NCBI GenBank assembly: GCA_017883485.1
Contig: JADGNM010000027.1
Location: 1-13,013, forward strand
Direction of reading: 5' to 3'
Length of the DNA: 13,013 nucleotides
Source of the DNA: Methanosarcina sp.
GTDB lineage: Archaea > Halobacteriota > Methanosarcinia > Methanosarcinales > Methanosarcinaceae
Position numbers and translations under genes: made by a program. Under the pieces are notes generated by a model, which worked only from the letters and a program-made list of their open reading frames with translations, was not told where the DNA came from and did not search any database. Of the stretch, positions 1 through 13,013 are shown piece by piece. Each line of letters starts with the position of its first letter. Positions within the stretch are counted from its first letter, which is position 1.

Positions 1-84
1 GCAAGAGAAGCAGGGATTACAGATTCAAAGTGGACACTAAGAAATCTTCTAACATTTAAGTGCTTCAAAACACCAATCATATAA
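1..84 (+). CDS. Possible 3' end of an unidentified ORF (partial)
   Basis: The first frame is open from the window edge for 27 codons and stops at TAA 82-84. It starts AREAGITDSKWTLRNLL and ends with a lysine/cysteine-containing tail. The peptide has plausible protein composition (a tryptophan, an amphipathic stretch) but is too short to assign. A transposase or other accessory-gene tail is possible given the neighbourhood, but I see no signature that shows it. It would converge with the decarboxylase gene, with about 70 bp between the two stops. A chance open stretch of this length is also possible. Confidence 0.25.
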   Translation, partial: AREAGITDSKWTLRNLLTFKCFKTPII

Positions 85-153
85 CGCTGGACGACCACAC
101 AGTACTGTAATTAAAAGTCTGCATTGAGCGAAAAATAATAATTAAGCTAAAAC

Positions 154-2484
154 TCATTCAATTTTCTTGTTTTTAATCAGTAGAGTTTTAAAATACTTTT
201 TTCCTTTTTCATCCGGAGCAGTCCTTTCGATGCCGTGAATATGACTTTCATAACCTGGGAATTCGTTCTCGAAGTCTTGCCGGGCAATGAGGTAATTCAG
301 AATATCCTCGGCATAGCAATCAAATTTCTCTCCGCCTATCATGACCGGAATGCCGGGAGGATATGGGACTAACATCACTGCAGCGATTCTGGGCATTGTG
401 TTGAAATCTATCAGGCGCAGTTCTACAAATTCCACCTCTTTCTTAATAATGCTGCGATAAGCCGCGGCTGGAGTTAGAGCTAGTACAGGCTTTGCTTCAA
501 AAGCTTGACACATTTTCTCCAGTAGCTTATTCGTTTTAATGTAGTTATGCATCATATTGCAATGGTTTTTCAAGCCCTGTTTTTGATACTTTTCCGGATA
601 CATCGCAACCAGGTCCGGAAATACGTCAGCAAGCTCGGCATTAGAATCGTTTAATTTCTTGAATTTAAAGAGCTCTGTAACTAAGGTGCCTTGTTTTCCT
701 TTAGTGGTGCCCAGAGAATTGAGCAACAACCAGGAATAATAATCGGCTTTCTCACAAACGATACCTTTGTTGATCAGGTAATTTGTAACAATGGCTGCGG
801 GGATACCTGTATCACTCATATTGCCGTTGACGTCAATGCCCGGACAGATGAAGGTTAACTTGATTGGGTCAAGCATGGTATATTCGTCCTTGACCGCAAA
901 ACCATGCCAGGTTGCTTCATTGTGCTTTCCCGGCTTGATAGTCCAATAAGATTGATTATTAGCCAGTTCCTTAATTGTGATTTTTGGCTTGCAATCCTTA
1001 TCTCGTTCAGCAATACAAGGCGGCTGCCATATCTTGAAAAACCAGTCTTTTTGTTTGGCCAGGTCCTCCTGAATCCAGGCAATCTTCCGGCGCAGTTCGA
1101 TAGCTTCCTCAATAATGTCCTCGAATAAGACGTCGCCGTTATCCAGCATCATCTTGGTGGCCACTTCCAGTGAAGCCACCATCGAATACTGGGGCGAAGT
1201 AGAGCCATGCATCATATAAGATTCATTAAACAGGTCGTGAAAGTTTTCTCGAGCTGCCGCCGAATACTTGATAGACTTGGGCAACTTGACATGAATCATT
1301 GAAGCCTGTGAAAAAGCCGTTAACAGCTTATGGGTGGATTGGGAGCAAAATACTAATTTCCTGCCATGGGGTAAGGACATCGCATAATGTTTTTTATAAA
1401 TGTTGTGGAATTTTGCATAGGCATACCAGGCTTCGTCAAAATGAAGTATTTCCACCTTGTCGAGATGGTCCTGAACGTAGCTGGTGTTATAACAAATGCC
1501 GTCATATGTCGAATTGGTTAACGCCGCCATCTTATAAAATTTCTCTTTAGAGATTGCACTAAAGTCCACCGGTCCTATGATTCCTAGCCCGTTGCGCATG
1601 GGATGCATATATTCCGGATTTGCTTCCGTAATAATCATCGAGTAGTTAAGTGACTTGTGGCAATTGCGGTCCATGAGTGTTAACTCGCCCGGAGATACCT
1701 GGCTTCGCCAGATAATTTGATTGGCTGTGGATGTCCCGTTCAATACATAAAAAGTCTGATCCGCTCCAAAAACTTCAGCTGAAAAGTTCTCCGCATCACC
1801 AGTAACACCACTATGGTCCAGTAGTGAACCGAGTTCAGACACTGAGATAGAGAGATCCGCCCGCAAGACGTTTTCGCCAAAGAACTTATGAAAAGCTGTA
1901 CCTGAGGGGCTTGTCAAAAAACCCTGCCCGCCCATATGGCCGGGAGTATGCCAGGCATATTTATAGGTTTCAACATACTGGACCAACTCCCGGAAGAAAG
2001 GCGGCAAAACAGAAGTAGTGTAATCCTTCACTTGTCTTGCGATTCTTCCGGCCAGAAAACAGGGAGTGTCAGTTAGTTTCCAGACCAGTTCATTAATTTT
2101 CCCCAGCACTTCATTGGGGATATTTTCGATGGAGACACGTCCGGTTAACAGGATGATCGGAACGGTTTTGTTCCTTTTCCGGATAAAATTGATTAAAACT
2201 TGAGCGGATTTGGTGTTTTCAACTTCTGACTTTAAATATGCGTTCTTCTCATGTAAGTGTCCTACTTCCAAAAGATCCCAATCAATCACGACCGTTCCGA
2301 GATCTTCTCTTGAGTGAACGATATCATGAGCATCACCTAATGCATAGGAAGGGATAATCGAGCAATCTTGTTGTTCGGTAAGATTTTGAATGATTTCACG
2401 CAACCATAAGCCCTGATCATTTTCTTTCTGAATTTGATCTGAGACGAACAGGACAGGCCACGATGACATTTCTAATTTTCCCAT
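154..2484 (-). CDS. PLP-dependent Orn/Lys/Arg decarboxylase (acid-resistance type, closest in pattern to arginine decarboxylase AdiA)
   Basis: The 776-residue protein is full length for fold-III basic amino-acid decarboxylases (AdiA, CadA, LdcC, SpeC/SpeF), which release CO2 from arginine, lysine or ornithine to give agmatine, cadaverine or putrescine. Residues 1-150 form the response-regulator-like wing domain (VVIDWD near 65-70). The PLP domain has YAWHTPGHMGG (176-186), NGTSTAN (249-255), HFDEAW (348-353) and SQSTHKLL, where K386 is the expected Schiff-base lysine. SQASMIHVK and YMMHGSTSP follow, as in CadA/AdiA. The C-terminal domain has VPYPPGIP and FPGYESHIHG. The stretch TTKGKQGTLVTELFKFKK resembles AdiA more than CadA, so arginine is my best substrate guess, not proven. 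The start is ATG at 2484 behind a weak GGGG; ATG at 2469 (residue 6) is an alternative. No amino-acid antiporter of the AdiC/CadB kind is visible next to it. Archaea normally make agmatine with pyruvoyl-type enzymes, so acquisition from bacteria is likely. Confidence 0.93.
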   Translation of the reverse strand: MGKLEMSSWPVLFVSDQIQKENDQGLWLREIIQNLTEQQDCSIIPSYALGDAHDIVHSREDLGTVVIDWDLLEVGHLHEKNAYLKSEVENTKSAQVLINFIRKRNKTVPIILLTGRVSIENIPNEVLGKINELVWKLTDTPCFLAGRIARQVKDYTTSVLPPFFRELVQYVETYKYAWHTPGHMGGQGFLTSPSGTAFHKFFGENVLRADLSISVSELGSLLDHSGVTGDAENFSAEVFGADQTFYVLNGTSTANQIIWRSQVSPGELTLMDRNCHKSLNYSMIITEANPEYMHPMRNGLGIIGPVDFSAISKEKFYKMAALTNSTYDGICYNTSYVQDHLDKVEILHFDEAWYAYAKFHNIYKKHYAMSLPHGRKLVFCSQSTHKLLTAFSQASMIHVKLPKSIKYSAAARENFHDLFNESYMMHGSTSPQYSMVASLEVATKMMLDNGDVLFEDIIEEAIELRRKIAWIQEDLAKQKDWFFKIWQPPCIAERDKDCKPKITIKELANNQSYWTIKPGKHNEATWHGFAVKDEYTMLDPIKLTFICPGIDVNGNMSDTGIPAAIVTNYLINKGIVCEKADYYSWLLLNSLGTTKGKQGTLVTELFKFKKLNDSNAELADVFPDLVAMYPEKYQKQGLKNHCNMMHNYIKTNKLLEKMCQAFEAKPVLALTPAAAYRSIIKKEVEFVELRLIDFNTMPRIAAVMLVPYPPGIPVMIGGEKFDCYAEDILNYLIARQDFENEFPGYESHIHGIERTAPDEKGKKYFKTLLIKNKKIE

Positions 2485-3060
2485 TGGTTTTTTCCCCGAT
2501 TCAAGTCGTTATTATAATTTTGAATTACAAGATATCCTTTGGGTTATAGGTTGCAACTTAACATTGAGCTCGTCCTAAACCAATCTTATTCTCAATCGGT
2601 CGAAGTATCAAAATTATTTGTCATGATCTGAAACTCGATCAGTCATTAGTCTTGAGATTCAAAATGCATTTTGAGTTTTGAATCTGCTCTTTAATATTTT
2701 ATTCAACTTACTCATTAAATGAAATAATTTTGATTGTCCATACATATAATAGAGTTTCCTTTATAATACTTTTTATATTTATTTAGCCACCCAAAACCAA
2801 CATAACTTATAAAGCTAATCCTTACATACTTCTTAACGTTTAAATCAAATTCAATGAAAATAAAAGTAGCTTCCATATACTTTTGATAAAGTCTCTTTTT
2901 ACTTAACCTTTAAATACCAAAAATCAATATTGGGTGTTGTTTTAAATCTAAAATATAACTTTTATTTAGATAAAGCTTATATTAAATAAGATTATAACAA
3001 ACCAGATTACCTTAAACCAGTTTATTACAGTAACTTATTTTCATTTTATTTTCTTTTCAG
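2485..3060. other. AT-rich divergent intergenic region
   Basis: About 575 bp separate the divergently transcribed decarboxylase and endA genes. The stretch is strongly AT-rich and holds no convincing ORF or RNA gene. It contains several TATA-like candidates (for example near 2770-2780, 2949-2956 and 2977-2985), but I cannot pick one as the endA or decarboxylase promoter. The one distinct structure is the nested inverted repeat at 2655-2685, listed separately. Confidence 0.6.
2655..2685. repeat. Inverted repeat with 10-bp arms and a nested 16-bp palindrome
   Basis: AGATTCAAAA (2655-2664) and TTTTGAATCT (2676-2685) are perfect inverted repeats separated by 11 bp. Overlapping them, TCAAAATGCATTTTGA (2659-2674) is itself a perfect palindrome, so two alternative hairpins or protein-binding sites share the same bases. 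It lies about 170 bp upstream of the decarboxylase start and about 375 bp upstream of endA. It could be an operator, a terminator-like hairpin or a mobile-element scar; the sequence does not decide. Confidence 0.5.
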
Positions 3061-4122
3061 GTGAACCTATTGAGAGCAGAACTTAAAGGAGACCGTGTCC
3101 TCGCCGGAAAGGCAGCGGTAGCTGAACTTTACAAGACCAGTTATTTCGGGCGTCCTAAAGGTGAGGAACTCGAACTCTCGCTTGTGGAAGCTGCATTTCT
3201 CCAGTCGAGAGGAAAACTCGAGATCGAGCTTGAAGGCAAATTACTTGATTTCAGGATATTTTTCGAGCAGGCTTCTCTGAGGCAGCCCAATTTTGAGTTA
3301 AAGTACATAGTTTATAAAGACCTTAAGGAAAGAGGGTACTATGTCCAGCCTTCAGCTTCGGATTTCAGGGTATACCCCCGAGGCAGCCATCACGGTAAAA
3401 GTGCATCTACAATTTTTGTTCATGTCCAGTCGGAAAGGCAGCTTCTTTCCGTAAAATTCTTGAAAGATTCGGTTTATTCGGCAGAAAACGTACATAAACA
3501 GTTTGTGCTTGCTATAGTGGACGAAGAAAGTGACCTTACTTTCTATGAAGTCAAAACTGCAGTCCCCAAAGGAGAAATGCCTGAGCCTTATCCTGCTGTC
3601 AGGACCGATGCGACTTTCCTGGAAGATAGGGTAATAACCTGGGATACTGAGGCTTCACAGACTCTCTATGTCAGGGGATTTTACGGGAAAATGCTGGATT
3701 CCGAAAGGCTGCAGCTTTCTCTGGTGGAATCGCTTTACCTTTTTTCCGAAAGGGTAATAACGATTCGGGATAGGAATGGCAAGATATTTTCCTTTGATCA
3801 GTTCGTAGAAGAAGCCTTGAAGATTGAGAGCTCTTTTCTCGGGAAGTACGGTGTATATAAGAACCTCAGGGACTCGGGGCATGTAGTCAAGACCGGTTTT
3901 AAGTTCGGAACGCATTTCAGAGTATACAAAAAAGTCGAGTCAATAGAAAAAATTCCGCACTCGGAATACCTTGTAAATGCCATTCCTGCAGATTTCGAGT
4001 TCAAGCTTCCGGTCATGTCAGGGGCTGTCAGACTTGCAAACAGCGTGCGAAAGACAATGCTTTTTGCAATTGAGAAAGGAGATAAAGTGGAATACCTGGA
4101 TATCGGCAGAGTCAAAATGTGA
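3061..4122 (+). CDS. endA: tRNA-splicing endonuclease (tandem-repeat, homodimeric archaeal type)
   Basis: The 353-residue protein cleaves introns from precursor tRNAs at bulge-helix-bulge motifs, leaving 2',3'-cyclic phosphate and 5'-OH ends. It has two tandem copies of the endonuclease unit, as in the Archaeoglobus/Methanosarcina homodimeric form. The N-terminal copy (about 1-170) has YKDLKERGYYV and FRVYPRG but lacks the catalytic histidine, so it is the structural, inactive repeat. The C-terminal copy (about 195-353) has YKNLRDSGHVVKTGFKFG and then FRVYKK, HSEYLV and SVRKTM. By alignment with known triads, Y289, H300 and K331 are the catalytic residues; the Tyr-His spacing of 11 matches Archaeoglobus. 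The start is GTG at 3061, since the reading VNLLRAELKG begins the conserved N-terminus and the DNA just upstream is T-rich. The gene is monocistronic and converges with the broken channel gene, with 35 bp between the two stops. Confidence 0.95.
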   Translation: MNLLRAELKGDRVLAGKAAVAELYKTSYFGRPKGEELELSLVEAAFLQSRGKLEIELEGKLLDFRIFFEQASLRQPNFELKYIVYKDLKERGYYVQPSASDFRVYPRGSHHGKSASTIFVHVQSERQLLSVKFLKDSVYSAENVHKQFVLAIVDEESDLTFYEVKTAVPKGEMPEPYPAVRTDATFLEDRVITWDTEASQTLYVRGFYGKMLDSERLQLSLVESLYLFSERVITIRDRNGKIFSFDQFVEEALKIESSFLGKYGVYKNLRDSGHVVKTGFKFGTHFRVYKKVESIEKIPHSEYLVNAIPADFEFKLPVMSGAVRLANSVRKTMLFAIEKGDKVEYLDIGRVKM

Positions 4123-4157
4123 TGCCTTGATGGTATTTCCCAACTCTTAATATCCAG

Positions 4158-6135
4158 TTAATAAAAATTCAAGAGCGTGATGAACAGCAGAATCCCCATG
4201 ATGACAGGCCAGTACAGAACCTTCACGTAAATGTTATCCTTTGCATCAATAAAAGGAACATTCATATTTGATGCAAACGCTATCGAATTCAGGGAAACAG
4301 TCAGGACTGCCAGGTACATCACAAGGTAGAAATACTCAAGGTAGATGATACTGCCCATAGGGATTCTAGCCCTGAGGGCGGCATGTGCAATGATAAGAGC
4401 AAAAAAGAGGGAGGTGCAGTAGCCCAAGGCTCCACCATTACGGGTAGAAGATCGGAATCAAAGGGGCCTTTAAAGTCCCTTTTGACATCGACGTTGAAGT
4501 AAAGTTCGGGTACATTGGAATTTGCAAAATTCCCTACCCCGAAATTGGTGCTATAAGAATTCAATCTGTAACTGAAAAATGTTTTTTGCGGTTCCCAGCC
4601 TTCAAGCAAGAAAGAGCGATCCATGCCGGGAAAGGTTTCCGGAATCAGGCTGTTATAGGAATCAAAGTCCGGAACCAGGACCGATGTCGAATCGTTGCTC
4701 TTTAATCTGATCCATACATCTTCCCTGTCAAACGGATATCTTGAATAGTCGAACTGTTGGCGCAAAGTAGTCTTGAAACGCCAGCCTAAAACGCTTTTGT
4801 CCTCATTCACATAGGCCTTTTCGATTGTGGTTTCTTCTGATTCCGGAAAACTAAATCTCGGAGAAGCATTCTCAGCACCCGGCCTTGAAATATTTTGCCA
4901 GATATATCCGGTTACAATGACATCATAAGCATTCGAAAACTCTATGGACTGAAGAAAAACTCCTGTAGGAATCCTGGGGATTTTCGAACTCGTATTGGCG
5001 TGTTGCAGCACCGTTTCAACATCTTCCCTGTCGAAAACAACAAGGTCCACGTTCCTGCCGTCAAGAGTGGAATTATTTATAGTAAGATGCCAGATGAAGC
5101 CTATTCCCAGGATACAAAGTAATGAAAAAATAAACGCGAGCAGCCAGAGCCCTCTATGGTCATACCTGTAAATGGATACAAAAAGCAGGCATAGAAAGAA
5201 TAAAAAAGCAAAAGTTGCGAACACGACAAGAATAATTGAATGGTTCTGCTCCATTTTTCTATTCATCAGAGTTTCTTCCTGAGGAAGGACAAAACCCAGG
5301 ATCCAGTCTGTAGAGGAGATATTTTTTTGAAATACCCAGTAGGATTTCCCTGTAAAGGAATTTGTCGCCGAGTACTCTCCCTCTGTCATGTTCTTACTTA
5401 TAAAGTAGATGTTGGGATCTTTTTTTGCAAGGTCGTGAATATTTCCGGCCAGATACTCTTGGACAGGATAAGAAATAATCACCCCTTTCCTGGTAACCAT
5501 GAAACCATAACCCGTATCTCCCAGCTCAAGGTCTCCTACTTGCGCCCTTACTCCTTCAAGAGAATAACGTACACTTACCACTCCTGCAGCCTTGTGCCCG
5601 CTGCCGGAATCTGCAAGATAAAAAGGAACCGAACAATCTATCTGATAATTGGGGTTTGCAATCCCGAAATAAGGTGAAATCCATACTTTGGACCCTTTTT
5701 TCAGGGCATCGTTGTACCATGCAGTGTGTTCATTATCCTTTGTGTAGTCATATGTGATCGGAGTGTACACTACCTCCGAACCGTTTCTCATGAAATGAGG
5801 TGCATAAAGCGTCCCGGCATGGGCAGCAGGGGAATATGCAACGACGATGTTATAAATTTTGAAATTTTGGAATTGTTCTTCATTTCAGCCAAAAGGCGCT
5901 CCCTGAGCATGGAATCATCTTTCAATTTTCCGGAACTCAGATCCTTTGCAACTCCTTCGGCAAGGGAGCTCGTAGAATTAAGTTCGCTGTTAATCTTTTT
6001 TGTGGCAGAGTCGGCTTTTTGGAGCGCGTCTTCCTTTGCCTCTTCAAGAATTACTTCATTTGTCTTGCTGCTTTTGTACTCATACCCAGCATATGCTAGT
6101 AGCAAAAAACTGAGCAGGCAGAGTAGTGCCCCAAT
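4158..6135 (-). pseudogene. Decayed dCache sensor / pentameric ligand-gated ion channel (Cys-loop-like) fusion
   Basis: Three frames read in series give one protein. The first (about 6135 down to 5865) holds a signal-anchor helix (IGALLCLLSFLLLAYAGYEY) and a coiled, Lys/Glu-rich helix. Reading then shifts by one base near 5862-5864 into FKIYNIVVAYSPAAHAGTLYAP, followed by a double-Cache domain with WYNDALKKGSKVWISPYF and LGDTGYGFMVTRKGVIISYP. Two membrane helices follow (around IILVVFATFAFLFF and LWLLAFIFSLLCILGIGF). Next comes a ligand-gated-channel extracellular domain with FDYSRYPFDREDVWIRLK, the YPFD loop of prokaryotic and animal Cys-loop receptors, then LLEGWE and ELYFNVDVKRDF. After DLLPVMV (codon ending at 4433) the frame is lost. 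The pore part resumes in another frame from about 4432 as ALGYCTSLFFALIIAHAALR (M2), with M3 and M4 up to the TAA at 4158-4160. M1 is missing. The native start is gone, replaced by transposase sequence. I am confident of the homology and of disruption; sequencing error could explain the one-base shift but not the missing helix. Confidence 0.85.
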
Positions 6136-6659
6136 ACGAGAAAAAGCTTGGGGAGAATATCCTGTATCTTTTTGAGGATAGTGAAATGAAAAAAGAGGAG
6201 GAATATACACTCTATAAGCAACATGATGAAAATAAAATCACTACTAATACGTTTAATAAGGGCTTGGAGAAAGCTGGAAAAATCTTGCTTTTGTCAAATG
6301 TGGATTTGGCACCCAAAGATGTTTTTCTTATGTACAAAAAAAGAGATACTGTGGAAAAACACTATGACACTTACAAGAGTATGTTGGAAGCAGATAAGCT
6401 TTATTTACAGGATAACGAGTCGCTTTTCGGCCATCTTTTCATCTCATTCTTGTCCCTCTATGGCTACGTAAAAATTCAAAACTGTATAAGAAAGGCTGAT
6501 CTAACAAGCAAATATTCTCCGAGAGACCTTATAGAGCAATTCCGCAAAGTTTACGTGATTGATTTAGATGGCCAAATGATTTTGACGGAAGTACCTAAAA
6601 AGATTGATGAAATAGAGAAAAGGTTAAACTTGAACTTTTCCCTAAATGAGCAGAGTTAA
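6129..6659 (+). pseudogene. C-terminal half of an IS4-family transposase (IS remnant)
   Basis: The frame is open from about 6126 to the TAA at 6657-6659. It contains the IS4-superfamily signature Y-(2)-R-(3)-E-(6)-K exactly, in MYKKRDTVEKHYDTYK. The glutamate (codon 6354-6356) is the third acidic residue of the DDE catalytic triad. KILLLSNVDLAP before it and LFGHLFISFLSLYGY after it fit the conserved C-terminal part of the Methanosarcina IS1634-like transposases. The first two catalytic aspartates and the whole N-terminal half are absent: upstream of about 6130 the DNA belongs to the channel gene on the other strand. The element therefore cannot transpose. I find no clear terminal inverted repeat on the right side (6660-6700), and the left end is missing. 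The first codons overlap the channel gene's N-terminal frame, so the junction is placed only to within about 10 bp. Confidence 0.85.
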
Positions 6660-6704
6660 GGTTATAATAAGCAATCCAATTCTACACATTCAGGAAGATT
6701 GAAC

Positions 6705-7736
6705 ATGTCCACTTTTTCAGAAGCGACAACACTAGTATTGCACATTTGCCTCATCGGTGTAATCTTCACCGCGGGCTGTTCGGAAAAGCCTGGCTCCGTC
6801 ACCGCGGGTCAAGCCGTTTCGGGCCAAACAACGGAATCAGGAACAGCCACTCCTACCCCAGGAAGCGGAACAGCCACATCATCGATCACGTGGATATCCA
6901 CTCCTTCGGCTAACTCTTCCGGTGAAGCGCTGTTGTCGGGAGCAAAGACTCTCATGAAAGAGATCTACACCTATTCGCCGAATGCTCCCGATTATCTCCC
7001 GGGTTCGTATTCCAGCCAGAATAGTTATGCCACAGCATATGTGAAACACGCTATCAATATAAGCACGGTCGTCTGGGCTCCGGTCGGGCAGAACCAGATT
7101 ATATGGATAAGCAACCCCGGAACCTCACCGAAGGGATGGAGTGGCACCGTAGTGTCCGCAGGTTCTTTCGGGACTAACGGTAAACCCGAGGCAGTCCACG
7201 TCTATACCGATTGTAGCGGGTTCATCACATCTCTCTTTACCTACGCAAATACCGACCACACAACTAAATTTACCAGATGGAAGACCGGAAATCCCATCCC
7301 CGAAGCCGGATGCAATGACCCGCAGGGAAGCTGCATTGTGCCAAACCCGCTCAACTATTACCACCTCTTTGTTACAGGCCAGAACGGGTGGTTCCAGAAC
7401 GTTGCATTGGCAGACCTGCAGCCCGGTGATATCATCGCCTATGCAAATACGAAGAACAAAAGAGATTCAGGGCACATCATGCTCGTTGCAGCGGTTTCAA
7501 CGGGCAGGGATAATTCAACGTCAAGGTACGTTGTCGTTATTGATGAGACACAAGATGCTCACAGTTCCGATACCCGGATTATTAAAAAGTCCTCCTCGGG
7601 AGCTGTGGAGGGGGCCGGAGTCGGTATGGGAATTGTGAAATTGTCTAATTACTCAGACGGTTCACTCCAATTCTTCTGGGGCCTGACGAGTCCTAAACCC
7701 GAAGTTGGATCAATCGCGCTTGGGCGGGCACTCTGA
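6705..7736 (+). CDS. Secreted lipoprotein with NlpC/P60-like cysteine hydrolase domain
   Basis: The 343-residue protein begins with a hydrophobic segment and a lipobox FTAGC (C25), which predicts a lipid-anchored extracellular protein. A Ser/Thr/Gly/Pro-rich linker follows to about residue 70. The rest looks like the NlpC/P60-CHAP papain-like superfamily: VYTDCSGFITSLF gives nucleophile C170, ADLQPGDIIAY (236-246) is the usual strand before the histidine, DSGHIMLVA gives H257, and VVVIDET supplies the likely third polar residue (280-281). Such enzymes cut peptide or amide bonds in cell-wall or surface polymers. Substrate here is unknown, since methanogens of this type lack murein. ATG at 6705 is chosen over TTG at 6699 because AGGAAG (6692-6697) sits 7 bp before it. 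The signal n-region (MSTFSEATT) has no Lys or Arg, which is unusual. No operon partner is evident. Confidence 0.75.
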   Translation: MSTFSEATTLVLHICLIGVIFTAGCSEKPGSVTAGQAVSGQTTESGTATPTPGSGTATSSITWISTPSANSSGEALLSGAKTLMKEIYTYSPNAPDYLPGSYSSQNSYATAYVKHAINISTVVWAPVGQNQIIWISNPGTSPKGWSGTVVSAGSFGTNGKPEAVHVYTDCSGFITSLFTYANTDHTTKFTRWKTGNPIPEAGCNDPQGSCIVPNPLNYYHLFVTGQNGWFQNVALADLQPGDIIAYANTKNKRDSGHIMLVAAVSTGRDNSTSRYVVVIDETQDAHSSDTRIIKKSSSGAVEGAGVGMGIVKLSNYSDGSLQFFWGLTSPKPEVGSIALGRAL

Positions 7737-7984
7737 TAATTATCATCTGGATCTCTTCATTTTTATTTTTTCGCTCTGGAAAGGATACATTCTTGGCTGA
7801 ATAGATTCAGAAGACTACTTATAAGATGGGAAACGAAAATTGAGAACTACCTTGTATGCTACATTTAGCATGCGCACGGATAACCTTCAGAGCAGCAGGA
7901 CTTTTCGGATAGGCTCTTAATCAGGTTCAGTTTAATTAGTCTCATTTCGTTAAACTCAGATCTTAACCCGAGAGTGTAGTATAC
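7737..7984. other. Intergenic region with T-rich stretch and small inverted repeat
   Basis: The T-rich run at about 7757-7772 just after the lipoprotein stop is a plausible archaeal terminator. ATGCTA (7856-7861) and TAGCAT (7866-7871) form a short hairpin. A weak TATA-like TTTAATTA at 7931-7938 could drive the next operon. None of these is strong. Confidence 0.35.
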
Positions 7985-8380
7985 ATGTGGGATATTATTG
8001 CTGTGGATATATCTGGCAGGCACAGGATTAAAGGAGGTTATTACATGGTTTGTGCGGCAGTAACCCTCACTGTCTCAGCTAACCATATCGAGAAGATCAA
8101 ACAGATCAAGATTCAGCCCCTCTGGCTTAAAAGAGCTCCCAGCCTGCTGGACATCGTACAGCTGATTGAAGATACGGCTGACCAGCTTTCCTTTGAGGGC
8201 ACGATTGTGACAGAAAAAGGGGACATGTACAATAGGCCCATCTGGGTGCTGGAAAGCATGTTTTCGAGAGCCTTTAAATATCAGGAGTCCATTGCGGAGA
8301 GAAGGGCAATCGAACTTGTGCACCATATTTCTTTGAGTGCTCGCAACTTACTAATTAACGAACTTCAAATTGAGGCATGA
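7985..8380 (+). CDS. Conserved archaeal hypothetical protein (possibly DUF2209), upstream partner of hflX
   Basis: The 131-residue protein has no membrane segment or signal peptide. It begins MWDIIAVDISGRHRIKGGYY, where an acidic residue after a hydrophobic strand, followed by a Gly-rich turn, resembles the first hairpin of RNase H-like folds; this is only a fold guess. The rest alternates strands (VCAAVTLTVSA) with long helices (SLLDIVQLIEDTADQL, AERRAIELVHHISLSARNLL). I recall a methanogen family of this size and start as DUF2209, from memory only. ATG 7985 is chosen because the first 20 residues look like genuine protein. However, AAGGAGG at 8031-8037 is a near-perfect Shine-Dalgarno 7 bp before an in-frame ATG at 8045, which would give a 111-residue product. 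The stop overlaps the hflX start by ATGA (8377-8380), implying translational coupling and a related role, perhaps at the ribosome. Confidence 0.7.
   Translation: MWDIIAVDISGRHRIKGGYYMVCAAVTLTVSANHIEKIKQIKIQPLWLKRAPSLLDIVQLIEDTADQLSFEGTIVTEKGDMYNRPIWVLESMFSRAFKYQESIAERRAIELVHHISLSARNLLINELQIEA
8031..8037 (+). promoter_or_regulatory. Strong internal Shine-Dalgarno before an in-frame ATG
   Basis: AAGGAGG lies 7 bp before ATG 8045 inside the hypothetical gene. It also encodes Lys-Gly-Gly of the conserved-looking N-terminus, so it may be coincidental coding sequence or a true second start. By contrast the upstream ATG 7985 has no clear ribosome-binding site. Confidence 0.4.
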
Positions 8381-9687
8381 AAATTTCAGCAGAAAAGAAA
8401 TCCGGGAACGGGAACAGGGTAATTCTCGTTAAAAGAACCAGTCCGAATTCGGACCCTGAACGTGAAAAGAACCTTTTCCAGGAACTAAGGGAACTTGCAA
8501 GAGCCGCAGGCTACCTGCCGGTTGGGGAACTTACTCAGACCAGGTTTCCTGACTCCAGGTACCAGCTTGGGAGGGGGAAGATAGAGGAACTTGCCGAACT
8601 TGTGAGAAGCACAGGTACGGAAAAAGTAATTTTCTTCAACAGGCTTTCTACCATACAGCTCTTCAATATTTCGGAAATGTGCGGATGCCAGGTTATCGAC
8701 AAATTCCAGTTGATACTTGAGATTTTTGCAAAGAGAGCAACCACCCACCGCTCCAGGCTCCAGGTAGAACTGGCAAGGCTAAAGTATGAAGTGCCACGAG
8801 CAAGAGCTGTAGTCTCCCTCCTGAAAAAAGAGGAAAGGCCAGGCTTCATGGGACTTGGGGATTATGAGGAGTCCTATGAACAGGACCTGAAGAAAAGAAT
8901 CACAAGAATTGAAGATGAACTTGAGTCTGCAGAAAAGGACAATGAGTCCCTGAGAGCTTTCAGGCACAGGAAAGGCTTCTCCATAATTTCCCTTGCAGGA
9001 TACACAAATGCAGGAAAAAGCACTCTATTCAACGCTATTGTAAATGAGAGCGCTGAGGTAAAGGATATGCTCTTTACAACCCTTGTGCCCACGACCCGCG
9101 CGCTTGACCTTGGAGGAAGAAAAGCCCTTCTGACAGACACCGTTGGATTTATCGAGGACCTTCCCCACTGGCTGGTCGACGCCTTCAAGTCCACGCTTAA
9201 CGAGATTTTTCTCTCGGACCTCATCCTCCTTGTCGTAGACGTAAGCGAAAAGCCCGAAATAATCCTTCAAAAACTGTCTACGGCTCACGATACCCTCTGG
9301 GACCGCATCCAGGGAGTCCCTATCATTACAGTGCTTAACAAGACCGATCTGCTTGACGAATCCGAACTTGCAACAATTATGGAACAGATAGGCTATATGG
9401 CTCCAAATCCTGTTTTTGTCTCGGCAAAAGCAGGAACAGGCATTACAGCGCTAAAAGCCGAAATAATTAAGCATCTGCCTCCCTGGTCTTTCTATTCCCT
9501 TTCGCTGCCGAATTCGGAGAAAGGCATGTCAATTCTCTCCTGGCTATACGAAGAGGGAATAGTTCACAGGGTTGAGTATGGAGAGGGGATAACCGTGGAT
9601 TATGAATCCAGGACCGAGATTATTAAAAGGGCACAGGCTTTGATAAAAACCGAAGAGATCTTGAATAATGCTAAAGCAACTGAATAA
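8377..9687 (+). CDS. hflX: HflX-type ribosome-associated GTPase
   Basis: The 436-residue protein is full length for HflX, which binds the large ribosomal subunit and helps split or rescue stalled ribosomes. The N-terminal nucleotide-binding domain (about 15-150) has QLGRGKIEELAELV, KVIFFNRLSTIQLFNI and QVIDKFQLILEIFAKRATTH, then RLQVELARLKYEVPR. A helical linker (about 155-195) follows. The G domain has G1 GYTNAGKST (208-216), the G2 region TTLVPTTR with T235, G3 DTVGF (254-258), G4 NKTD (321-324) and G5 SAK (349-351). A small C-terminal domain ends the protein. Where bacterial HflX carries the Gly-rich GxGxRGPGE motif, this protein has GFMGLGDYEESYEQD, the archaeal variation. ATG 8377 overlaps the upstream stop. 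The overlap means expression probably depends on translation of the preceding small gene. Confidence 0.96.
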   Translation: MKISAEKKSGNGNRVILVKRTSPNSDPEREKNLFQELRELARAAGYLPVGELTQTRFPDSRYQLGRGKIEELAELVRSTGTEKVIFFNRLSTIQLFNISEMCGCQVIDKFQLILEIFAKRATTHRSRLQVELARLKYEVPRARAVVSLLKKEERPGFMGLGDYEESYEQDLKKRITRIEDELESAEKDNESLRAFRHRKGFSIISLAGYTNAGKSTLFNAIVNESAEVKDMLFTTLVPTTRALDLGGRKALLTDTVGFIEDLPHWLVDAFKSTLNEIFLSDLILLVVDVSEKPEIILQKLSTAHDTLWDRIQGVPIITVLNKTDLLDESELATIMEQIGYMAPNPVFVSAKAGTGITALKAEIIKHLPPWSFYSLSLPNSEKGMSILSWLYEEGIVHRVEYGEGITVDYESRTEIIKRAQALIKTEEILNNAKATE

Positions 9688-9707
9688 ACTCTGAAGAGGA
9701 GTTAAAA

Positions 9708-9740
9708 CCTGGAGAACATCCAGGCCCGTCAAGGCCCGTC
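9708..9740 (+). repeat. Short hairpin plus tandem AGGCCCGTC repeat after hflX
   Basis: CCTGGA (9708-9713) and TCCAGG (9719-9724) form a 6-bp stem with a 5-base loop, 20 bp after the hflX stop. It overlaps two tandem 10-bp units, CAGGCCCGTC and AAGGCCCGTC (9721-9740). No T-run follows directly, so it is not a typical terminator. It may stabilise the 3' end of the mRNA. Confidence 0.4.
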
Positions 9741-9839
9741 CAGAGTAAAAAGCGTTATCTGAAGAATTAAAAATGATTCCAATTTTATAAAAGCAGTCTA
9801 AATATTATCAAGGGTTTTTCAGCATTCTTTTACCAGAAA

Positions 9840-9850
9840 GTTTTTTATAT
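9840..9850 (+). terminator. Possible T-rich terminator or TATA element
   Basis: The T-run starting near 9840 and ending in TATAT could terminate the hflX transcript in the archaeal manner. It could equally be a second box A. The distance from hflX (about 150 bp) makes either reading uncertain. Confidence 0.25.
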
Positions 9851-9860
9851 AGCCTGGGTA

Positions 9861-9920
9861 CCGTTCGCATAAGTACGAAAGGTATTTATATTCAAAAGTC
9901 GTTTGTATACATGCGAACGG
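9861..9920. promoter_or_regulatory. Inverted repeat bracketing a TATA box: candidate operator/promoter
   Basis: CCGTTCGCAT (9861-9870) and ATGCGAACGG (9911-9920) are perfect 10-bp inverted repeats. Extending inward, 15 of 20 positions match between 9861-9880 and the reverse complement of 9901-9920. The TATA-like TTTATATT (9885-9892) lies almost exactly at the centre, so a transcription start would be expected near 9911-9917, inside the right arm. The arrangement would let a dimeric repressor at each arm block TBP or polymerase. The core recurs as CCGTTCGCA at 10001-10009. The likely controlled gene is the PHP gene, with a leader of about 180 bases. Confidence 0.55.
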
Positions 9921-10000
9921 GTGTCTACTAAAACAGACATCAGACCCTCCTACCTAATATCCTGAAATACACCCCAAACCAGATTTTTGCTATGCCCTGC

Positions 10001-10009
10001 CCGTTCGCA
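10001..10009 (+). promoter_or_regulatory. Third copy of the CCGTTCGCA core
   Basis: CCGTTCGCA repeats the core of the arms at 9861 and 9911. The starts of the three copies are 50 and 90 bp apart, both close to whole helical turns, which would put them on the same DNA face. It lacks the inner extension shared by the other two. Confidence 0.35.
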
Positions 10010-10060
10010 ATCCCTCCTTTTCTTTACACTTATCTATTTCTTTTTTTTCGTTTACGTTTC

Positions 10061-10068
10061 TTTATATA
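10061..10068 (+). promoter_or_regulatory. Box A (TATA) promoter of the PHP gene
   Basis: TTTATATA is a consensus methanogen box A. Its centre is about 30 bp before ATG 10095, so transcription would begin within a few bases of the start codon, giving a leaderless or nearly leaderless mRNA. This fixes ATG 10095 as the start. Confidence 0.65.
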
Positions 10069-10094
10069 AATTCACTTACAATTTTCGTATTAGC

Positions 10095-10778
10095 ATGAAA
10101 TTCGATCTTCACGTGCATTCCCATTATTCAAAGGACAGCAAAGCGACCCTGGACGAAATTCTTAATGCTGCCCTTAAAAGGGGACTTGACGGCCTTGCTA
10201 TCTGCGACCACGATACCATAGAAGGCGGGCTCGCCTGCGAAAAAAGAGCCCAGGAACTTGGCCTTAAAATTACAGTCATCCCCGGAGTGGAGGTCAGCTC
10301 TTCAAAAGGGCATATCCTTGTCCTTGGAATCAGGAAAAACATAGAACCCCTGCTAAGTCCGGAAGAAACGATAGAGAGAGCCCGGAAACTCGGAGGCGTA
10401 GTTATCATTCCTCACCCTTTCAAGCAAAGCTCTCACGGGATAGCAGATTTCGAAGGGCTTGATATTGATGCAGTTGAAGTATTCAATTCTCGCTGTCTCC
10501 TTAATGACGCAAACCGCAAAGCTGAAGACAAGGCAAACCGGCTTGGAATCCCGGGCGTTGCAGGAAGCGATTCCCACATTCCCGAAATGGTAGGGCAGGC
10601 CTATACCGAAATTAACGCCTCCGAAAATACCCTTGAAGCCGTGCTCAGGGCAATCAGGGAAGGAAAAGTAGCATCAGCAGGAAAAAATACGCCAACGACT
10701 GTAATTCTGGAGCAGATGTCAGGAAGTGTGAAGCGGAAATTGAAGAAGAGATTGGGTAGATTAATAAAAGGGTTGTAA
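10095..10778 (+). CDS. PHP-domain metal-dependent phosphoesterase
   Basis: The 227-residue protein is a PHP (polymerase and histidinol phosphatase) domain with essentially nothing else. Metal-ligand motifs in order are HVHSH (H6, H8), CDHD (D38, H39), GVEVSS (E66), HILVLG (H73), HPF (H107) and GSDSH (D159, H161). Together they build the trinuclear metal site of the family. Stand-alone PHP proteins hydrolyse phosphoesters such as nucleoside bisphosphates, oligoribonucleotide ends or histidinol phosphate. The exact substrate here cannot be read from sequence. The basic C-terminal tail (KRKLKKRLGRLIKGL) might bind nucleic acid or membrane. Start ATG 10095 is placed by the HxH motif position and by the TATA box 30 bp upstream; the in-frame extension back to 9987 is rejected. 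It appears monocistronic, with promoter elements of its own and a possible distal operator. Confidence 0.92.
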   Translation: MKFDLHVHSHYSKDSKATLDEILNAALKRGLDGLAICDHDTIEGGLACEKRAQELGLKITVIPGVEVSSSKGHILVLGIRKNIEPLLSPEETIERARKLGGVVIIPHPFKQSSHGIADFEGLDIDAVEVFNSRCLLNDANRKAEDKANRLGIPGVAGSDSHIPEMVGQAYTEINASENTLEAVLRAIREGKVASAGKNTPTTVILEQMSGSVKRKLKKRLGRLIKGL

Positions 10779-10918
10779 ATGCTCAGCTTGGGAATTGATT
10801 GTGCGGAGTTTCAAATAAAGAATCGCATTTAGAGTTTAGGATCAGCTACTAAATAATTAACCTTACATAAATTATAAAATATACCGCTGTTATTTCATCA
10901 GAACTCAAGGCAATTTTT

Positions 10919-11430
10919 TTAACAGTTACAAGGGATTTGTTTGCTGAAATTTATCTTTTTTATAGAAATATTTATTTGATCGAGTTGGTTACAGATTGCT
11001 CCCATAGCCCCTCTTCTGTTGTCACCTATTACTCTGACCTCAATTTGTTTATCATCAGGCTTCACCTTTACAGGAGCACGCGAATTTAGGAGATTCAATA
11101 CCACTCCCTCTCTCCAGCAGAGAGGCAATCCATTTAATTTTTTCTCGATGTCCTGATGCATACGCACTATAAAGCGGGTAATTATGCCAGAAGGCAAAAA
11201 GTAATCATAAGAATAATAAAACAAAGTTCGTCTTTCTCATCCCACTCAAAATCATCTGGTTCTTCTTTTGGCAATAATTCGGGAACAAGGTAGCTGCTTT
11301 TATCTGGAAGTTCGTATGAGAGTTCGAATTTATTCATTAACTCCATAAATTGGGGATAAATCCTGAATTTCCATATTTTAAGCGCATATATCTGATTCCG
11401 CGAATCTGTTATGTCAGAAATCACGATTTC
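10919..11430 (-). pseudogene. Fragment of a Roco-family GTPase: COR domain, frameshifted
   Basis: Two minus-strand frames join into one COR-like domain. The first, from about 11430, reads FMELMNKFELSYELPDKSSY and PELLPKEEPDDFEWDEKDELCF. The second continues YYSYDYFLPSGIITRFIVRM, then CWREGVVLNLLNSR, then IEVRVIGDNRRGAMGAICNQ. The pattern of an ELMxKFEL helix, PELLP, an LPxGxxTRFIVRxH segment, a WREGVVL strand and a final LDQI helix is that of the COR dimerisation domain of Roco proteins (the LRRK2 family), which occur in Methanosarcina. The join needs one extra base in the A-run at 11218-11221. The preceding leucine-rich repeats and Roc GTPase domain are absent: an in-frame TGA lies just upstream of 11430, and no P-loop is visible. 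The frame ends at TAA 10919-10921 right after IPCNC. It is not expected to be functional. Confidence 0.75.
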
Positions 11431-11450
11431 AAATTTAGAGCTATTAATTC

Positions 11451-11472
11451 ATGTGCTTAAGTTTAAGCACAT
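11451..11472. promoter_or_regulatory. Perfect 22-bp palindrome with nearby third half-site
   Basis: ATGTGCTTAA (11451-11460) and TTAAGCACAT (11463-11472) are perfect 10-bp inverted arms around a 2-bp GT centre, the size of a dimeric repressor site. A third half, ATGTGCCTAA, sits at 11495-11504 with 9 of 10 matches. The position is about 240 bp upstream of the HTH gene and just upstream of the Roco fragment's remaining reading frame. An operator or the end of a small mobile element are both possible. Confidence 0.5.
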
Positions 11473-11504
11473 AATTAGTTATTATTAGAAGTTTATGTGC
11501 CTAA

Positions 11505-11681
11505 AAACGCGGAACTCAGGATTTAACGCCCTCAAATAAACAATCATCTGCGGAACGCAATATTAAGCTCATCTTTATCCATCGATTGCACAGTGAGCGT
11601 CAGATTGACTCCAGAAGAGATATGTGTCGTGGGCTAATGCCAGTGATACTAAGAATCCATATAAATTGCATTGCAAGCATA
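11505..11681. other. Intergenic region, no gene seen
   Basis: Neither strand shows a convincing reading frame. A short imperfect palindrome, TTGCA-T-TGCAA (11666-11676), lies just before the HTH-gene TATA box and could be an autoregulatory site, but 5-bp arms are weak evidence. Confidence 0.35.
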
Positions 11682-11690
11682 TTTATATTA
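11682..11690 (+). promoter_or_regulatory. Box A (TATA) promoter of the tandem-HTH gene
   Basis: TTTATATTA is box A-like and centred about 25 bp before ATG 11710, so the transcript would start at or next to the start codon (leaderless). This supports ATG 11710 over the upstream in-frame TTG at 11671. Confidence 0.55.
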
Positions 11691-11709
11691 TAATCATAAT
11701 GTCACAACC

Positions 11710-12009
11710 ATGCGAAAGCGAATTGAAATGAAAGAAGAATTGTTCAAACCATTATACGAACAAGGCTGTAACGACAATGAGATCGCTCGCAGATTTGGGG
11801 TTACCGCTGGTACTATCATGAGGTTCAGACACAACCTCGGGCTACCGGTAGTGGACGCGAGCACAAAGATAGACGAAGAATTATTCAAAAAGCTATACGC
11901 AAGCAGACTCGATGATCGTCAAATTGCCCAAGAAATGGGTCTTAGGATTGCTGATATTTGGAGGTTCAGACACAACCTTGGTCTGCCGACGTTATATACA
12001 AACTCATAG
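11710..12009 (+). CDS. Small protein of two tandem 47-residue HTH units
   Basis: The 99-residue protein consists of two repeats with a period of exactly 47 residues. The first runs about 8-46 (KEELFKPLYEQGCNDNEIARR to MRFRHNLGLP). The second runs about 55-93 (DEELFKKLYASRLDDRQIAQ to WRFRHNLGLP). Each has the helix-turn-helix pattern of a first helix, (N/R)(E/Q)IA, a Gly turn and a basic recognition helix ending RFRHNLGLP. The ending recalls the short HTH units of GcrA-like or recombinase proteins, but I cannot name a family. A DNA-binding role is likely, with tandem units reading two adjacent sites. The gene stops at TAG 12007-12009, exactly one residue before a third repeat begins, so the product is probably a truncated version of a longer protein. 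It may still fold and bind DNA. Confidence 0.7.
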   Translation: MRKRIEMKEELFKPLYEQGCNDNEIARRFGVTAGTIMRFRHNLGLPVVDASTKIDEELFKKLYASRLDDRQIAQEMGLRIADIWRFRHNLGLPTLYTNS

Positions 12010-12172
12010 ATAGATTCTGAAATCTTCAAAAACTTTCTGATGAAGGACTTAATGAACGTCAGATTGCTCTCGAACTTGTATTTAGTAATTCAGCGATTAG
12101 CATTTGGCGAAAAAAGATGGTCTACCAAGTAATTACTTTAAGAAAATGATCGAGAAGAGTGAGGGTGAGTGA
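12010..12172 (+). pseudogene. Decayed third HTH unit and tail of the upstream gene
   Basis: Directly after the TAG, in frame, the DNA reads IDSEIFKNF, in phase with KIDEELFKKL of repeat 2. A one-base loss near 12036-12040 shifts to the frame reading EGLNERQIALELVF and SAISIWR. A second shift near 12110-12116 leads to DGLPSNYFKKMIEKSEGE and a TGA at 12170-12172. The GLP of that last frame matches the end of repeats 1 and 2. The original protein thus had at least three units and about 155 residues. Confidence 0.7.
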
Positions 12173-12322
12173 ATTACTCCTCTTTTAAGTCCAAAATATA
12201 TTGGGATATTACCAATCCTTATCTCCGGAAGCCACACAAGCCGTTAGATTGGCTCCAAATAAGCACTGCAGAGACTTTGGGAATTTACATTATACTCTTC
12301 TTTATACTTTTGATCTTCAGGT
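12173..12322. other. Convergent intergenic region
   Basis: About 150 bp between the end of the decayed HTH gene and the PhoU stop. ATTGG and CCAAT around a 7-bp loop (near 12200) form a small hairpin. No gene or clear terminator is visible. Confidence 0.3.
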
Positions 12323-13013
12323 TCAGATCATCTTTACATTCATATTGATTGCAATTTCTGCGATATCGCCGCTGTATTCGGCTGCCCTGCGGAAGCTCTC
12401 CAGAACCATGCTAAGTTCAATGTCATCTGGGGTTCCACTTTCCCGTGATTCCAGGGAAACTCCGAACTGAGAGATCTTTTTAGCTTCCACAACTAATTTG
12501 TTTATTGTCTGAAGGTCTTCTTCCGTCATTACATTCATTGAGCTTTCGAAAACTTTGCGGGAGAGTTCAGCCATCCTGAAAATAGGGTCATCAGGGTTAA
12601 CCCCTGAACTCATTTTCTGGACATTTTTAGCTATTCTGACCGCATGGTCTCCTATGCGCTCGATAATTTTAGTAATAAGCCTGTACTCCAGAGATTCTTG
12701 CGGATTCCGGATTCCTATAATTTCATAGAGTTCGATGTCCTCAATTGCGGCGTTGAGCTGGCGGACAGAAAGAAAATAGAAACGATCCACATCATCGTCT
12801 CTCTGGATGACGTCTTCGGCAATTTCCACATTATAATCCCGAAGAGCAACCATAGAGTCTTCAAGCATCGAAAGCACAAGACCGTACATGTTTTTGATTA
12901 CCCGGCCAAGAGGCAGATCATTGTAATTTAGCAGGCACTGGAAAACCAGCTCATTCCTGGATTCTTCCACAAGTTCAAGGCCTATCATTTTCTGACGCAC
13001 TGAATCCTTGATA
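12323..13013 (-). CDS. PhoU-family phosphate-uptake regulator (5' end outside the window)
   Basis: At least 229 residues, running off the right edge; the frame remains open upstream (IKDSVRQKMIGLELVEES), so the GTG at 13000 is not the true start. The visible part is the two-repeat helical PhoU fold. Repeat 1 has GRVIKNMYGLVLSMLED, QRDDDVDRFYFLSVRQLNAA, KIIERIGDHAVRIAKNV; repeat 2 ends ESFRRAAEYSGDIAEIAINM. The (E/D)xxxD metal-cluster motifs appear as ERIGD and EYSGD. PhoU proteins link phosphate transporters (Pst or Na/Pi type) to signalling and limit phosphate uptake. Archaeal members of this length usually carry an N-terminal AbrB/SpoVT-like DNA-binding domain. The GLELVEESRNELVFQCLLNY stretch is what joins the two parts, so that domain is expected just beyond the window. 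No phosphate transporter gene is visible here. Confidence 0.92.
   Translation of the reverse strand, partial: IKDSVRQKMIGLELVEESRNELVFQCLLNYNDLPLGRVIKNMYGLVLSMLEDSMVALRDYNVEIAEDVIQRDDDVDRFYFLSVRQLNAAIEDIELYEIIGIRNPQESLEYRLITKIIERIGDHAVRIAKNVQKMSSGVNPDDPIFRMAELSRKVFESSMNVMTEEDLQTINKLVVEAKKISQFGVSLESRESGTPDDIELSMVLESFRRAAEYSGDIAEIAINMNVKMI

Follow-up and report, generated by a model that had tools for sequence, protein, structure and literature searches.

The systems closest to the locus described here are prokaryotic pentameric ligand-gated ion channels (pLGICs) with an additional sensor domain. In the covered sections of Tasneem et al. 2004 (PMC549065), fusions of MCP-N and Cache domains to a channel module were reported for Methanosarcina, Cytophaga and Microbulbifer, several ligand inputs and a role in chemotaxis were proposed for these fused ART-LGICs, and M. 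acetivorans and M. barkeri are among the species of a figure legend. The covered passages of Jaiteh et al. 2016 (PMC4795631) mention the two Methanosarcina channels of that work and urge more study of domain architectures, and in those of a 2025 paper (PMC12664993) DeCLIC is named as the sole prokaryotic channel whose extra domain is partly characterised. Literature searches for pentameric channels with a Cache domain, including those of Methanosarcina, returned nothing under those names, presumably because the 2004 paper uses the term ART-LGIC; other literature searches yielded nothing further on these fusions. Here, a DNA stretch of 13,013 nt of Methanosarcina sp. (assembly GCA_017883485.1, contig JADGNM010000027.1, positions 1 to 13,013; referred to as the window) was analysed. 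The minus-strand locus at 6135-4161 very probably represents a broken gene of a sensor-channel fusion family, for which a pentameric assembly, modulation by the Cache domain and ion flux as output are proposed. The family is known in kind since 2004, and the window copy is a decayed member of it.

Searching with the intact homologue P0002 (695 aa) by tblastn revealed three pieces of one gene, located in three different frames, which bears out the coordinates and the content assigned to 4158..6135 in a preliminary description of the window. Conservation is given below in rows of homologues, the 120 rows being composed of the 76 rows of alignment A2 (76 of 120 listed proteins) and of 44 long open reading frames (ORFs) of 600-800 aa (25 of 69 ORFs fell outside that range), some of them near-identical. 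The features of the gene are:

5866..6135, minus strand: N-terminal piece with the membrane anchor and the long helix / beginning of the first Cache lobe (80% identity to P0002 residues 14-103, E 6e-38)
4433..5878, minus strand: main open piece with the rest of the double Cache domain, the second transmembrane helix (TM2), the pre-domain helix, the channel extracellular domain and the start of M1 (P0002 residues 97-578; 78% identity, E 0)
5168..5242, minus strand: TM2, the helix that follows the Cache domain (helical in the model of the homologue; hydropathy in homologues)
5084..5152, minus strand: pre-domain helix ('M0') with a conserved Trp (112 of 120 rows), leading into the channel extracellular domain
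4718..4738, minus strand: YPFD Pro-loop motif (Pro in 120 of 120, Asp in 110 of 120 rows)
4472..4486, minus strand: conserved Arg before M1, in VKRDF (115 of 120 rows)
4161..4433, minus strand: C-terminal piece (P0002 residues 605-695; 77% identity, E 2e-42)
4365..4433, minus strand: M2, by homology to P0002
4269..4352, minus strand: M3, by homology to P0002
4161..4235, minus strand: M4 and C-terminus, by homology to P0002

The 490-aa ORF at 4319-5791 matched Pfam dCache_1 with 51.4 bits against a cut-off of 45, so that the double Cache domain (two PDC lobes flanked by membrane helices) proposed earlier was confirmed, and its frame runs unbroken over the boundary between Cache and channel. An intact family with the same domain order, which the preliminary description had anticipated, was found in 22 aligned intact proteins and, as open frames of 696-722 aa, in six further Methanosarcina genomes. 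Together with the three-frame alignment, these homologues established both the domain order and the fossil status of the window copy. A predicted model shows the fold of both halves. In intact members TM1 is followed by the extracellular double Cache and TM2, and then, after a brief turn in the cytoplasm, by the pre-domain helix and the channel subunit with M1-M4.

The channel half was identified via the homologues, whose fold matches GLIC. A beta-sandwich extracellular domain is followed by a four-helix membrane domain, as in the pLGIC layout, and the conserved residues comprise the Pro and the acidic residue of the Pro-loop as well as the basic residue ending the ligand-binding domain, a feature named in the legend of Figure 1 of PMC549065, as far as that paper was covered. 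The best matches in the PDB of a profile built from 54 core sequences were to GLIC (E 0.023 only), and one stand-alone relative matched the NCBIfam family LGIC_1 'ligand-gated ion channel' (E 1.6e-4, below the curated cut-off), while the intact fusion P0036 (Methanosarcina sp. T3) gave no family in the same scan. Several observations weigh against the assignment. No channel family was detected in the Pfam or NCBIfam scans of the window ORFs; PF02931 and PF02932 exceeded their cut-offs in 0 of 30 Methanosarcina genomes, the control genomes not exceeding either; and these two channel models were not among the families listed for 13 or 54 core members. They were likewise not among the 25 of 38 families shown for a Pfam scan. 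GLIC E-values in other sequence searches were marginal (0.054 and 0.79), and in the search yielding 0.79 six of 27 rows belonged to an unrelated protein (SCAP). Moreover, the homologue model has its lowest confidence in the M1-M2 loop (residues 572-579 under pLDDT 50), so pore lining and ion selectivity cannot be read from this region, and no report of expression of any family member was found in the literature. Thus, the profile match to channels expected in the preliminary description was missed by Pfam and NCBIfam for the window copy, but structure and relatives point to a channel. The label Cys-loop-type needs correction: a conserved Cys pair around YPFD is present neither in the 22 aligned members nor in the window piece. 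Because no such pair flanks the loop, the channel is, judged by its sequence, of the Cys-less (Pro-loop) form and not an animal Cys-loop receptor. As a separate observation, P0002 residues 549-658 gave a weak match to Pfam DUF4436 (E 0.0068) in one of the 22 members, a family that may be remotely related to the channel membrane domain.

The most durable of the other explanations holds that the C-terminal half has kept the channel fold and conducts nothing, serving as a signalling scaffold that passes the Cache signal on by conformational change. The M2 columns are largely hydrophobic and aromatic, their outer end carrying an Arg that hardly varies, sequence similarity of the family to conducting channels is weak, and no conduction data for the family were found in the literature, all of which would suit a scaffold. 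However, the family retains all four helices of conducting relatives together with their Pro-loop and pre-M1 Arg, and none of the 22 aligned members has a domain after M4 that could act as a cytoplasmic output. A non-conducting scaffold is improbable.

The long homologues typically have seven hydrophobic segments, located near residues 10, 315 and 342 and followed by four at the C-terminus; the hydropathy cut misses some of them in individual rows, and nine of the 78 loci of relatives (L049, L051, L052, L056, L057, L060, L061, L062 and L089) were left out of this analysis. The loop between segments 2 and 3 is basic and the stretch after segment 3 is acidic; therefore, Cache and channel domain are both predicted to be outside. 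Since the first helix of the stand-alone cores is hydrophobic and corresponds in the alignment to segment 3 of the fusions, its Trp being present in 112 of 120 long rows, the fusion resembles an entire TM-Cache-TM module set ahead of a channel with its own leading helix. This M0 helix also occurs in Cache-less relatives and hence may belong to this branch of channels in general, as a fifth membrane helix.

In the proposed mechanism, five identical subunits would assemble into a homopentameric pore, and the Cache domain would bind a small extracellular molecule. The signal could be passed on through a shift of TM2 together with the pre-domain helix, or through a direct contact between the Cache and the channel domain, and would thereby set the gate, with ion flux as the presumed output; a second ligand may bind at the subunit interfaces of the channel itself. 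More tentatively, and with the odds rather against it, the family could constitute a distinct class of ligand-gated channels, in which a TM1-Cache-TM2 input module is wired through membrane helices with a TM2-'M0' hairpin and seven helices per subunit, two independent extracellular inputs exist, and signals from the sensor could reach the gate of the pore by way of the membrane.

For the ligand of the Cache domain, the amino-acid motif given in the covered part of PMC10104139 was used, its positions being mapped through alignments to Cache proteins. The motif Arg, two residues before the WY pair, was found in 0 of 76 rows of A2, where Thr (61), Ala (10), Tyr (3) and Ser (2) take its place. The distal Asp is replaced in at least 69 of the 76 A2 rows and is present in 6 of the 44 other long ORFs. 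With the Arg absent and the Asp mostly replaced, the family does not fit the motif of the universal amino-acid sensors (dCache_1AA), and by the published motif the ligand is not a usual amino acid. Of the residues of the amine sensors (dCache_1AM), which were scored in part, the aromatic pair is kept (W 76/76 and Y 73/76 in A2) and the Asp is mostly lost; an amine as putative ligand is neither supported nor excluded. Matches of the Cache search in the PDB other than Cache proteins (sulfotransferase, CaMKII hub etc.) had E-values of 0.11 or weaker and were taken as chance.

Three lesions distinguish the window copy from its intact homologues. At the 5' end approximately 13 N-terminal residues, the start codon and the upstream region are gone, channel-gene homology ending at 6135, and an insertion sequence (IS) remnant follows. 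The features at the lesions are:

6139..6670, plus strand: 3' end left over from an IS1634-family element, directly adjacent to the channel gene (NCBIfam NF033559, E 5.3e-23, profile positions 331-481 of 483, below the cut-off as a fragment)
5854..5869, minus strand: exact 8-bp tandem repeat at the first frame break, the sole exact tandem unit of 6-14 bp in 4101-6240
4433, minus strand: deletion point with frame change (P0002 residues 579-604 unmatched between the adjoining pieces)

DNA homology to IS copies begins at 6139 (matches in G022 and G012, two other Methanosarcina genomes), other copies matching from further in, and extends to 6670 in a copy within the genome of the window. The ORF listed at 6126-6659 has its start inside channel sequence and matches the C-terminal third of an IS1634-family transposase. 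The deletion at 4433 amounts to 26 residues (~79 nt) and removed most of M1 and the M1-M2 loop, leaving columns 264-289 of the core model unmatched, so that the earlier reading of M2-M4 was exact and M1 is the missing helix. Because start, frame and most of M1 are lost, the window copy is, by its sequence, incapable of making a channel; the decay is probably recent, since the central 490-aa frame is still open. No further copy was found in the assembly, which is incomplete: both matches of the core profile are pieces of this gene. The loss as such matters little and suggests that the sensor-channel is dispensable in one Methanosarcina lineage.

It is very improbable that the organism has an intact gene and that the lesions stem from errors of sequencing or of a fragmented metagenome assembly. 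The draft genome (2.83 Mb) consists of 453 contigs and is 82% complete, and one lesion falls on an IS remnant, a site typical of misassembly; against this, three kinds of lesion occur in one gene, yet the ORFs for tRNA endonuclease and decarboxylase beside it have their full length, and the assembly has no core-profile matches besides the pieces of this gene. That two adjacent pseudogenes without relation to each other, one of a Cache receptor and one of a membrane protein, mimic a fusion has a negligible probability. The piecemeal state of the window copy might lend itself to this reading, which is refuted by the single open frame across the Cache/channel boundary and by the same order in the intact homologues.

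Within the 30 genomes of the genus, the search with the 490-aa ORF gave matches in 27, most of them to the Cache part only and with E-values mostly between 1e-7 and 1e-11. The channel-core search gave matches in seven, namely the broken copy of the window and long open frames in six of the 29 others (G001, G003, G005, G016, G017 and G022). Scanning named genomes yielded 142 relatives, of which 78 loci were kept, spanning Methanosarcinales and other archaea, cyanobacteria, Pseudomonadota, Nitrospinota, Chloroflexota, Bacteroidota and others; where database names are given, members are mostly called hypothetical or Cache-domain protein. Eight of ten relatives scanned with Pfam had Cache families at E <= 0.01, several of them below the curated cut-off, and L092 had DUF7548 only. 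L076, one of two Nitrospinaceae forms of ~672 aa with membrane segments at 38 and ~275 (L076:3947-5962 and L082:5299-7317), gave no match to Pfam at E <= 0.01, so in these forms the Cache domain may have given way to another sensor. A longer fusion of 1282 aa with TPR repeats, Cache and channel occurs in Spirulina (L070:4153-7998), and a euryarchaeal form of 1176 aa (L054:4702-8229) has ~450 residues ahead of the Cache domain without a Pfam family. In the related draft genome G016 a single copy has a long open frame, and several other pieces of the family are partial or contain stops (contigs C56, C191, C160, C320, C242, C204 and C310; loci L002, L028, L141, L146, L149 and L151), so the family is apparently multi-copy and partly decayed there.

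In a tree of 68 cores (11 short, 57 fusions) the fusion state needs two changes, and a single clade of short cores was not rejected (p 0.46). The tree was built by a quick method with 21 of 64 inner branches open, fusions and short cores were labelled mainly by length, only 13 A2 proteins were included, and L063, L103 and L100 were omitted; without a known root, the two changes carry no direction. Patchy presence, the lack of a clear shared neighbourhood and the intermingling of phyla in the tree would fit a history of repeated loss and transfer.

As to the neighbourhood, the loci of relatives yielded 96 rows for the channel and 0 for the nine neighbours in the window. The neighbouring endA is located elsewhere in other genomes (e.g. 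~300 kb off in G003), and among the six other genomes of the genus several neighbours are common only to the close pair G003/G005. A short ORF near the channel gene of G005 resembles two ORFs near that of G001 (54%), and no clear operon partner was found among the loci compared. Repeat-rich ORFs 3' of the intact channel gene in G005 and G022 (L117:10413-12842 and L119:11604-15284) have stretches of 31-57% identity and are possibly a shared neighbour or merely a common type of surface protein. Elsewhere in the window, a full-length Orn/Lys/Arg decarboxylase, here in a methanogen, is encoded at 154-2484 on the minus strand (OKR_DC_1, E 1.3e-131), and a probably secreted protein with weak NlpC/P60 or amidase similarity at 6699-7736 on the plus strand. 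Two overlapping short ORFs at 10919-11424 on the minus strand look like fragments of one decayed gene, perhaps that of a Roco-type (COR) protein.

The interest of the locus lies in the hardly studied intact family rather than in the fossil. Prokaryotic channels with extra extracellular domains are hardly studied in general, and this family, which has a recognisable small-molecule sensor and occurs in archaea as well as in many phyla of bacteria, could reveal the way in which chemoreceptor domains are linked to channels with the fold of neurotransmitter receptors. In Cache histidine kinases the Cache domain belongs to a kinase, and the aligned ligand-motif Asp is replaced in most sensor-channel members. 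GLIC, the proton-gated channel of Gloeobacter, differs with an identity of only ~15%, and it is not known to possess a sensor domain or a membrane helix before the channel domain. DeCLIC of Desulfofustis is likewise a prokaryotic channel with an extra N-terminal extracellular domain affecting gating (PMC12664993, PMC9897478, as covered); its extra domains, however, are two beta-rich lobes (PMC9897478, covered passages), the word Cache is absent from both main texts, and the covered passages describe no membrane helix ahead of the channel domain. The ART-LGICs, as described in the covered sections of PMC549065, consist of an N-terminal signal peptide and a 4-TM domain, with no mention there of two helices between sensor and channel domain, and differ further in that the window copy is a pseudogene. 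By description they are nevertheless alike, with the same genus, the same order and a Cache-type sensor N-terminal to a Cys-less channel module.
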